From: Clostridiaceae bacterium | GTDB taxonomy: Bacteria; Bacillota; Clostridia; Lachnospirales; Lachnospiraceae | Reading direction: 5' to 3' | Assembly: GCA_910575585.1 (NCBI GenBank) | Contig: CAJTGF010000012.1 | Span: forward strand, 1-64,000 | Length of the DNA: 64,000 bases | Shown here: positions 5,601-31,656 of the stretch, one piece after another | Numbering within the stretch: position 1 is the stretch's first letter | Layout: each line of letters begins with the position of its first letter | The notes under the pieces: model-generated | The model's database searches: none | What the model was told of the DNA's origin: nothing | Seen by the model: only the letters and a program-made list of their open reading frames with translations | Made by a program: the position numbers and the translations under genes

Positions 5601-6072
5601 ACTATATTCGTCTGCACTGCAGATAGATCCCTAAAAATTAAAATCCAAACCGCATATATCGACAATTATACGTGGAAATATCCGGATGGTCAAATTAAAA
5701 AAATTTTAAGACCGGCAGGCAGGAATCAGAACAGAGCAAACCCATAAAAGCAACCGGAAGGAGCCATGGGAGAGCAGTGGAAATGGGATTGAAACCTGGA
5801 AATAACCTGTTTATATTTGCTTGTTTCTTGTTTAACCTTGTCTGATAATTTTAGGTTACATTGTAACCTATCTTTTTATTCGAATTAACCTTTAATATTT
5901 TCTGATAATTTAACAATTATATGTTTATTTTACAGTTTTATTTTCTTTATAGGTTACATCTGTTTTGTACCCTATTTTTCTATAATCAATAGGATACCAA
6001 TCCCCTCTCCCACTCCCATAAAGGGGATGCAAAAATATAGGATCCATGCAAAACGAGTTAATAACTACCTAA
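5601..6072. other. AT-rich intergenic region with TAGGTTACA palindromes
   Basis: No gene is visible. The striking feature is a perfect palindrome at 5852-5870, arms TAGGTTACA and TGTAACCTA around one base. A related, imperfect repeat lies about 100 bases on (5950-5975: TAGGTTACA, 8-base gap, GTACCCTA). Such paired palindromes resemble operators for a dimeric repressor, but no adjacent promoter can be assigned with confidence. The region lies between the phosphoesterase start and the palindromic repeat. Confidence 0.45.
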
Positions 6073-6786
6073 CCCGGATAAACCGGAACTTTAAATTCGT
6101 TATGTTGCTGTATTGTTGAGTGAGCAAAGGCGGGGATTGTCGTGAGGCCAGTCAGAGGAGAGCTGTCCCGTCCGGGTTCAGATATGCCGAACATTCCGAT
6201 GAGCCCAAAGCGGAAAACACTCGGGGTGAGGCCCTCCTGTTTTCCTGGTCTCATCTCCATGGCATAGATTCACCCTGCCGGGACAGCTCTCCTCTGCCTG
6301 GCAAAACCAGAATTCGCTGGCTAAGGTTTGCTCACTTAAGGTGGTTTCGGTAGGGACGCTGCCTCAACTTTGCAGCGAAAAAACAGCTGTTTTTTATGGC
6401 GTCAGGTATATTGTTGAGTAAGGTTAAGGCGATGTTGTTGGGAACCTGAAAGGATCTGCCACCAAAGCAGTTATCTTTTCACTATAGAGTCGAAACAGCG
6501 TTCCCTATCGAAACCACCTTAAGTGAGCAAATCCCGGCCAGCGAATTCTGCTTTTGCCCGGGAGGGAAGGCAGGCTGTGTGCCGGCAGGGTGAATCTATG
6601 CCATGGAGATGAGACCAGGAAAGCAGGAGGGATGATACCCGACTGATTTCCGCTTTGGGCTCATCGGAATGTCTGGCATATCTGAACCCGGACGGCACAC
6701 AGCCTGCCTTCACTCCCTGGCTCCGCGACTATCCCCGCCTTTGCTCGCTCAACAATACAGCAATTCCATTATTTTGCCATTTCGCC
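6073..6786 (+). repeat. Large palindromic repeat family A, copy 2 (complete)
   Basis: A complete element of about 0.71 kb. The ends carry TTGAGTGAGCAAA (near 6116) and TTTGCTCGCTCAA (near 6740). It consists of a left hairpin (stem 6150-6171 pairing with 6278-6299), an inner inverted repeat (6327-6358 with 6490-6521), a central spacer of about 130 bases, and a right hairpin (stem 6559-6585 with 6691-6717). Apical parts of both hairpins share TATGCC/GGCATA and GATGAG/CTCATC pairs. Short ORFs crossing it on both strands are by-products of the symmetry. Same orientation as copy 1 in its central spacer, opposite to copy 3. Confidence 0.88.
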
Positions 6787-6924
6787 CAAGAAATCAATCT
6801 TAAGGATCTAATTGATACTGAATGATCCTATTAATCTAACGCCTTGTGAAGTTATGAGGCGGAATATCTGCCGGAATAGGCTTTAGCAGAAGAACCGAGG
6901 ATATCCTTCCAAAACACGCTCTAG

Positions 6925-26980: not shown

Positions 26981-27283
26981 CATGTCCTCCTTTGCGCCGG
27001 TCCTTTTCGGCGGATCCGGCCTGTTATTTTTCTTCCTGAAGCGGCATCCCTGAAACCGCCGCGTTTTTATATCTTCTCTATTGTAATAGAAAATCCCAAG
27101 GGTGTAAAGTGTTTCTTGGAGCAACTGTTGTGATGCGGATTCATGGTTTTTGTGGTATAATGTTTAAGGAAAAGACCCTGGGCCCGCCCCGCCTTTAATG
27201 GCTGGCGGGGCGCTGTATTCGTGCCTTGTGAGACAAAACTATACTAAAAATGATATAAGGGGTTTGGGAACGATTTTTTGCGT
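26981..27283. other. Intergenic region between pyrF and repeat A3
   Basis: About 300 bases without a gene. A TATAAT (27156-27161) on the plus strand is followed by a GC-rich hairpin (GCCCCGCC 27186-27193 with GGCGGGGC 27204-27211). No good -35 was found, and no PyrR-type attenuator with anti-terminator pairing could be drawn by eye on the pyrF side. Confidence 0.35.
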
Positions 27284-27996
27284 GAGATGGGAAAATAGTT
27301 TAATTGCTGGATTGTTGAGCGAGCAATGGGCGGGGATTGTGGCGGAGCCCGGGAGGGAAGGCAGGCTGTGTGCCGGGCGGGTTCAGATATGCCAGACATT
27401 TCGATGAGCCCAAAACGGGAACCAGGAGGGGTTAGTCCCTCCTGGTTCCCTGGTCTCATCTTCATGGCATAGATTCACCCGCCCGGCACACAGCCTGCCT
27501 TCCCTCCCGGGCAAAAGCAGAATTCGCTGGCCGGGATTTGCTCACTTAAGGTGATTTCGATAGGGAACGCTGTTTCGACTCTGTAGTGAAAAGATAACTG
27601 CTTTGGCGGCAGATCTTTCAGGTTTGCAGCAACATCGCCTTAACCTTACTCAACAATATACCTGACGCCGTAAAAAGAAGCTATTTTTTCGCTGCAAAGT
27701 CGAAACAGCGTCCCCTACCGAAACCACCTTAAGTGAGCAAACCTTAGCCAGCGAATTCTGGTTTTGCCAGTCAGAGGAGAGCTGTCCCGTCCGGGTGAAT
27801 CTATGCCATGGAGATGAGACCAAGAAAACAGGAGGGCCTCACCCCGAGTGTTTTCCGCTTTAGGCTCATCGGAATGTTTGGCATATCTGAACCCGGACGG
27901 GACAGCTCTCCTCTGACTGGCCTCACGACAATCCCCGCCCCTACTTTGCTCACTCAACTAAACAGCAATATGACAAAATAAAAGCTCCATTTTAAT
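27284..27996 (-). repeat. Large palindromic repeat family A, copy 3 (complete)
   Basis: A complete element of about 0.71 kb, inverted relative to copy 2. Left hairpin: a perfect 36-base stem (27347-27382 with 27477-27512) and an apical perfect 14-base stem (27417-27430 with 27437-27450). Right hairpin: a perfect 30-base stem (27767-27796 with 27891-27920). Between them is a 43-base inner inverted repeat (27537-27579 with 27699-27741) with three differences, and a spacer of about 120 bases. All three differences become G-U pairs if the minus strand is the RNA. No convincing protein gene. It lies between pyrF and an acetyltransferase gene. Confidence 0.9.
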
Positions 27997-28088
27997 TCGA
28001 ACTAATACAGCGGTACAATACACCAGAGACAGACACATCTAAGCATATCCGGGGACACCACTATAAAAACAGACAGGAGTTTAACGCC

Positions 28089-31330: not shown

Positions 31331-31437
31331 TCTTCCATTGCAGCGGGATGCGGCCTGCGCACCGCAAGAATCCTCCTTTTCGTCCGGCTGGCAACTCCCC
31401 GTCCAGCCGGCACTTAACGCGCGCGGGCCTACTCTGC
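31331..31437 (-). promoter_or_regulatory. Tetrahydrofolate (THF) riboswitch
   Basis: On the minus strand the leader reads AGAGTAG, then GCGCGTTAAGTG, a variable GC stem (CCGGCTGG / CCAGCCGG) around a CGGGGAGTTG loop, then ACGAA and GCGGTG, closing in GCATCCCGCT. Order and core motifs match the THF riboswitch class, which controls folT and folate genes in Firmicutes. Placed 50-160 bases before the folT start; the region between contains a possible expression platform with the AGGAGG. Confidence 0.85.
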
Positions 31438-31656
31438 TTTTCTGTATTTTATTTTTTTGTCGCCCTTTTATGGTATCTTGATGGATGATATCGGTAGGGC
31501 TGGTTCCTGTATTAGGATATCATATCTTTGGCAAAATGCAAGTATTTTTGTAAGTTCTGTGTTCATTTGCGTTCATTTGCATATATTCCTTTTATACGCA
31601 TGCCACAGTGAAACACCATTCTCCCTAAGGTTCTCTCCAATCCATAAACAGATTTC

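Follow-up and report, generated by a model that had tools for sequence, protein, structure and literature searches.

Palindrome-associated transposable elements (PATEs), as described in PMC3119063, are palindromic sequences of Haloquadratum walsbyi that have no terminal inverted repeats, are too short for a transposase, occur in many copies, exist also as 52-bp versions made of the termini only, and are related to IS605-type elements. Repetitive extragenic palindromic (REP) sequences are described in PMC3733652 as repeats of 20–40 bp with GTAG or CGTC tags. Rep_trans and Rep-Arvir initiators have a catalytic domain like that of TATA-binding protein (TBP), a MarR-like winged helix and a KHYYM motif (PMC13107129). 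Here, we analyzed a palindromic element present in three copies in the first 64 kb of contig C12 (this whole stretch is called the window below) of a Clostridiaceae bacterium, whose draft genome comprises 6.13 Mb in 253 contigs. Very probably, the element is a non-autonomous derivative, of the miniature inverted-repeat transposable element (MITE) or PATE kind, of a family of single-gene insertion sequences not recognized by any of the libraries searched.

The initial annotation of the window could match the element to no known repeat class. This was a fair judgment; the closest class that we found is the PATE type, but with a different transposase. Both are multicopy palindromes that are too short for a transposase, lack terminal inverted repeats and have terminal-only versions (52 bp in PATEs, 65 bp here), whereas a partner protein without Y1_Tnp, the target CTA and a filling that forms a large branched palindrome set our element apart from the PATEs of PMC3119063. 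Asymmetric ends, a subterminal hairpin and a short target sequence are shared with IS200/IS605 elements. However, the partner of our element lacks Y1_Tnp (PF01797) and is a protein of about 500 amino acids (aa) with a C-terminal winged helix. Like REPs it is a multicopy palindrome, but it measures hundreds of base pairs and has a defined left end (LE) and right end (RE), in contrast to the repeats of PMC3733652. The structure model of the partner suggests a TBP-like domain and a winged helix, as in the initiators of PMC13107129, and has invariant tyrosines in HYYFY, which may be compared with their KHYYM. However, there is no sequence match to these initiators, the protein comes from an insertion sequence, and its catalytic residues are candidates only. 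In the open-licence literature, we found no description of the family, the CTA target or the hairpin described below.

Shared ends and copies of the palindromic element

We set the flanks of 18 loci side by side and found that homology extends beyond the limits first given for the second copy (6073–6786). The element placed there is real, but its left limit was set 4 bases and its right limit 24 bases too far inwards. The left end reads CTA|ACCCGGATAAACCGG and the right end ..TTTTGCCATTTTGCG..GGGT-CTA, or TAG-ACCCTTAAGAACGATTTCTTGCGCAAAATGGC when read inwards. The two ends are not inverted repeats of each other, and the palindromic part lies between them. In copy 2, the LE occupies 6069–6113 (plus strand), with the junction triplet CTA at 6069–6071 followed by ACCCGGATAAACCGGAACTTTAAATTCG and with the hairpin CCGG-ATAAA-CCGG. 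The RE occupies 6764–6810 (plus strand), and its last triplet is the junction CTA at 6808–6810.

The LE motif search led to two loci, L123 and L124, in the sister genome G006, a metagenome-assembled genome (MAG) labelled as an uncultured Hungatella sp. They are 95.8% identical over 1650 bp, carry the same LE and the same type of RE, and their homology stops at these two ends. Each consists of the LE, a promoter-like stretch, an open reading frame (ORF) of 506 codons (500 aa from an inner ATG) and ..TTTTGCCATTTTGCGTCAAAAATCATT..GCCTAA. The ends of the palindromic elements are therefore the ends of a one-gene element of about 1.65 kb; CTA stands at both junctions, and a palindromic filling replaces the gene. 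Because both ends are shared, the repeats are read as non-autonomous copies of that insertion sequence. The mobile nature of the element and the identity of its partner are strongly supported: the non-autonomous mobile element first suggested as one possibility has ends that can be defined, inserts at the same kind of site as a gene-bearing partner and shares both ends with it, and one copy (L073, whose junction is ambiguous) is nested within another.

The own genome contains a broken 5' copy of the partner gene (contig C3), a match of 35% identity that is interrupted by stops, and four 3' stubs; no intact gene is among these matches. The stubs are 89% identical over the last 36 aa, and their position at contig ends points to intact copies that have been collapsed.

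All three copies reported for the window are present, at 1–380, 6069–6810 and approximately 27256–28003, the last on the opposite strand, and copies 2 and 3 are 91% identical across 712 bases. Copy 1 (minus strand) is cut by the contig start and has its LE at 363–380 with 3 mismatches. Copy 3 (minus strand) is inverted relative to copy 2, and its ends are degenerate, with outer limits set by eye. The opposed hairpins and the inner inverted repeat of the first description were also found. In copy 2, the inner inverted repeat TTGCTGTATTGTTGAGTGAGCAA has its left arm at 6105–6127 (plus strand) and its right arm at 6741–6763 (minus strand). Between them lie hairpin 1 (6136–6313), a middle hairpin with spacer (6289–6569, arms 6289–6356/6502–6569) and hairpin 3 (6556–6721). 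Hairpins 1 and 3 each hold a core module, at 6184–6265 on the minus strand and at 6598–6679 on the plus strand, respectively; copy 3 has cores in both arms, with the plus-strand one at 27803–27884. The arms 6164–6285/6578–6699 of copy 2 are 89% complementary, and further arms pair at 6105–6160/6708–6763, 6136–6188/6261–6313 and 6556–6603/6674–6721. As first reported, no transposase gene was seen in the copies of the palindromic element that were read.

We then searched for the element beyond the window. Copy 2 gave at least 105 BLAST matches in the own genome, direct and inverted and several per element, with 40 of 150 first-look candidates scored. The 22-base inner end TGCTGTATTGTTGAGTGAGCAA gave 136 matches there (71 + 65, at most 3 mismatches; positions listed for 100), and the reversed control gave 0 + 0. 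This is far above chance; the initial annotation was right but understated. A tolerant pattern detected 26 elements with both ends: 24 in the own genome (275–1069 bp, where the 1064 bp of L011 reach a second right end), one of 300 bp in G005, and one of 65 bp in G003 (L135), which is LE plus RE with nothing between. The interior thus ranges from nothing up to about 1 kb; L057 and L062 each hold a single hairpin.

Further copies do occur in related genomes. Within the genus, 26 genomes (among them the own genome) were searched for the LE motif with at most 3 mismatches, and 8 contain it. As a DNA query, copy 2 matched 10 of 61 genomes. Nine of these are within the genus, including the own one; those in G003, G007, G011 and G022 match over short stretches only, mostly the hairpin core, and the single match outside it covers 26 bases in another family. 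Ten genomes reached through loci of the partner's relatives gave 48 LE matches. In the 19 of these loci that were read, either the upstream region of the gene or a contig end comes after the LE, so the palindromic expansion is seen only in the window's genus.

Two minor observations concern these loci. In the own genome, fragments of IS200-type tnpA lie inside or beside palindromic copies at L099 (900–2100), L104 and L102, with the L099 piece in mid-palindrome; they are probably later insertions. A lone LE-like motif stands beside an ornithine carbamoyltransferase gene (by eye) at corresponding positions of two sister genomes (L112, about 1500, and L126, about 466).

Insertion at CTA and the left-end hairpin

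We examined 56 insertions, namely 25 gene-bearing, 26 MITE and 5 from Anaerolineales. CTAACC is preceded by C (position −1) in 54 of them (25/25 gene-bearing, 24/26 MITE). An A follows ..CT (position +1) in 55 (25/25 and 25/26, respectively); for the gene-bearing elements, this count is in part a product of the RE pattern, which included CTAA. The site preference of the MITEs thus matches that of the gene-bearing elements. Five copies in one Anaerolineales genome, 99.9–100% identical pairwise, have a constant ..CTA|ACCC on the left and ..GGCA-CTA|N on the right, where N is G, A, T, A and A. Because CTA is constant at both junctions and N is variable, the shared junction is CTA.

Empty sites, which had been proposed for defining the ends, were reconstructed by joining the flanks. 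In 14 of the 49 joined sites, an ORF extends for 60 aa or more to either side, and 11 of these fit one retained CTA, although L186 fits +1 equally well, L158 is to be discounted, and some others are open frames that are perhaps not genes. At L226, the one-CTA join restores a Pfam Peptidase_M32 match over all 120 residues (187.9 bits), whereas the alternative join is matched over residues 1–60 only (93.7 bits). Our first reading, an insertion between C and A without duplication, was abandoned because the joined frames favor one retained CTA. At L142 and L194, in two unrelated genomes, the RE is immediately followed by short tandem repeats (units of 7 and 8 bases) in which CTAA occurs.

The LE pattern, with 4 substitutions allowed, was found at 77 of the 80 relatives of the partner that were analyzed (see below), in 20 distinct forms; at least one of the 77 is a chance match. 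Relative to the CCGG/CCGG stem, three forms have CTGG/CCAG, one has CCGA/TCGG and one has GCGG/CCGC; one form breaks a stem pair. By sequence comparison, the LE hairpin shows compensatory changes across phyla. Such paired changes suggest that the strand may be recognized in folded form.

Of 53 own MITEs, 36 had a negative and 17 a positive GC skew on the transposase strand (p = 0.008), and the split was 15 vs 14 in 29 gene-bearing copies and 21 vs 25 in 46 distant copies. As these counts are weak or balanced, they give no support for a strong dependence on the lagging strand.

A core hairpin and its carriers

Each arm of the palindromic element holds a core of about 90 nt, CCATGGAGATGAGACC..AGGAGGG..CCCGA..GGGCTCATCGGAATG, and the cores in the two arms of one element are oppositely oriented. 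Searches of Rfam found no family for the element at either curated or relaxed thresholds, and none matched the core in the five loci examined. We aligned 32 cores, 16 from G003, G007 and G022 and 16 from the own genome, G005, G010 and G016. Paired cells made up 96.3% of the alignment, compared with 37–46% in slid controls. Two-sided changes occur in 12 of 26 pairs (0 of 500 shuffles as high), and the covariation score was 0.263 vs 0.125 (reached by 0 of 500 shuffles). Judged from these alignments, the core has strong covariation and a shape conserved across several related genera.

The same core lies within other elements in G007, G022 and G003. In G007 and G022, its carriers are about 216 bp long with ends TAGGTAATTGCGAAA. 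Direct repeats of 9–12 bases, with 12 as the upper length scanned, flank 8 of 13 distinct carrier sites with both ends (two with one mismatch). These repeats indicate that another transposition system is probably at work in the sister species. Among 150 genomes of the family, a covariance model detected the core in 6, of which one is the own genome and five belong to other genera; these five have at least 28, 11, 8, 1 and 1 matches, with at most 29 candidates scored per genome. In one of the five, G166, the core stands at the tip of an inverted repeat in 19 of the 20 copies retrieved (L282–L301), and the twentieth is cut by a contig end. The arms of these repeats are 82–89% complementary within a copy and differ between copies (266–380 alignment columns); no shared outer-end motif was visible by eye.

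A tandem GA flanks the 3-bp apical stem in 25 of 27 pattern matches in other genera. The full GGA/GGA loop, present in 15 of 27, is thus conserved less well than the GA pair. Of the two matches without tandem GA, L281 (minus strand) looks like a chance match and L301 seems to have GA by eye. In G011 (L265, L266), the core is shorter and lacks the apical GA stem. In G022, a Clostridiales-1 RNA (RF01699, 108.3 bits; L036, 1154–1313) lies about 120 bases from a core-bearing element, and both have CGGA-type internal loops.

The candidate transposase and alternative explanations

The G006 protein of 500 aa has no significant match in Pfam (best E 0.16), NCBIfam (0.051) or PHROGs (0.27), nor among PDB sequences (best 0.22, antibody chains), and its Pfam matches up to E = 1 include neither Y1_Tnp nor Rep_trans. 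A scan of 84,980 species genomes gave 179 relatives, and the further analyses used the best 80. In Pfam, 30 of 48 relatives match the winged-helix family HVO_A0261_N (best 2.9e-5) and others match MarR types; Y1_Tnp is not among the 25 families listed of 44. In the tree of the 48, the row labels name 11 phyla, and some near-identical pairs bear different labels (e.g., L189/L190). Since most rows are MAGs, contamination is possible behind these labels. Relatives occur in 11 plasmid records, where they are called hypothetical protein or ArsR family (transcriptional) regulator or are unannotated, in one scanned viral contig, and in no phage record.

The AlphaFold2 model of the protein (pLDDT 87.8) has a C-terminal winged helix. 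In the structure search, TBP chains were among the best matches for residues 1–395, with weak scores, and the 50 matches listed (VIA) were mostly winged helices at residues 385–500; no HUH enzyme is named in this list, an absence that carries no weight. The model is no more than suggestive of a TBP-like fold as in Rep_trans rolling-circle initiators; the own genome has no Rep_trans match. Among the candidates for a catalytic tyrosine with three acidic residues, E112, Y141, Y143, E243 and E327 are identical in 7/7 broad members and in 48/48, Y317 is identical in 7/7 and in at least 90% of the larger set, and the invariant tyrosines fall in HYYFY.

We infer that this protein is the transposase. 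It would bind the folded left end and the right end, cut beside CTA and join the element to a target CTA without inverted repeats, perhaps acting on single strands and using a tyrosine of a TBP-like fold in the manner of Rep_trans-type initiators. The palindromes may have grown through inverted duplication of a hairpin and been trimmed by deletion between arms. LE and RE seem sufficient, so any filling could travel, and the core could be either a passenger or a functional folded module.

The CTA at both junctions, with one CTA in the empty site, would equally fit a true 3-bp target duplication made by a double-strand (DDE-like) mechanism rather than single-strand joining, and sequence alone cannot separate the two. 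However, the ends are asymmetric without a terminal inverted repeat, the end hairpin has compensatory changes, and no transposase family matches, so we consider this mechanism rather unlikely. The same asymmetric ends, end hairpin and junction triplets resemble IS200/IS605, and movement by a Y1 HUH transposase, or a relation to REPs and their associated tyrosine transposases (RAYTs), could also be considered. The own genome has 11 Y1_Tnp matches, and cores occur in the Y1 loci L099, L102 and L104. Nevertheless, no Y1_Tnp match was obtained for the protein encoded by the partner that carries both ends, the pattern search found no core in the best Y1 loci (L095, L096), and the Y1 piece of L099 sits inside a palindrome, like a later insertion by eye. 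This origin is highly improbable.

The repeats could also be copies of a structured non-coding RNA gene, with selection keeping the folded RNA and mobility being incidental. Strong core covariation, and the tandem GA/GA, often as a GGA/GGA loop, kept across genera and carriers, would agree with this. However, folded DNA would give the same covariation, the cores of the two arms face opposite ways, no Rfam match exists, and whole elements have no common fold. We regard this explanation as improbable. The large structured RNA suggested initially does not apply to the whole element, whose interior is too variable to be one conserved RNA, but may hold for the core, which covaries strongly and has no Rfam match. 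Some results do not fit these readings. At the insertion site, the joined frames of L155, L196 and L224 (3/14) fit no version of the junction. Against the covariation of the core, its 17 pair types do not exceed the number in shuffles, 470 of 500 of which score as high, and its columns 31 and 49 pair in only 15 of 32 cores.

The carriers of the core are the LE/RE elements of the window's genus, in the sister species an inverted-repeat element with 9–12-bp direct repeats, and in another genus long inverted repeats specific to each copy. We propose, tentatively and with some doubt, a family of winged-helix transposases with a tyrosine in a TBP fold, labelled as eleven phyla and acting on folded ends and CTA, together with a hairpin of about 90 nt that rides unrelated mobile vectors. 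To our knowledge, a TBP-like catalytic fold is not known in insertion sequences; if true, it would be a new catalytic type for bacterial transposition. The conserved ends and the CTA site make the family easy to annotate and test. The core, with its conserved shape and different carriers, raises the testable question of which folded DNA or RNA module merits carriage by several unrelated mobile elements. Elsewhere in the window, a tetrahydrofolate (THF) riboswitch (RF01831, 96.7 bits) lies at 31339–31438 and is the sole Rfam match in the window.
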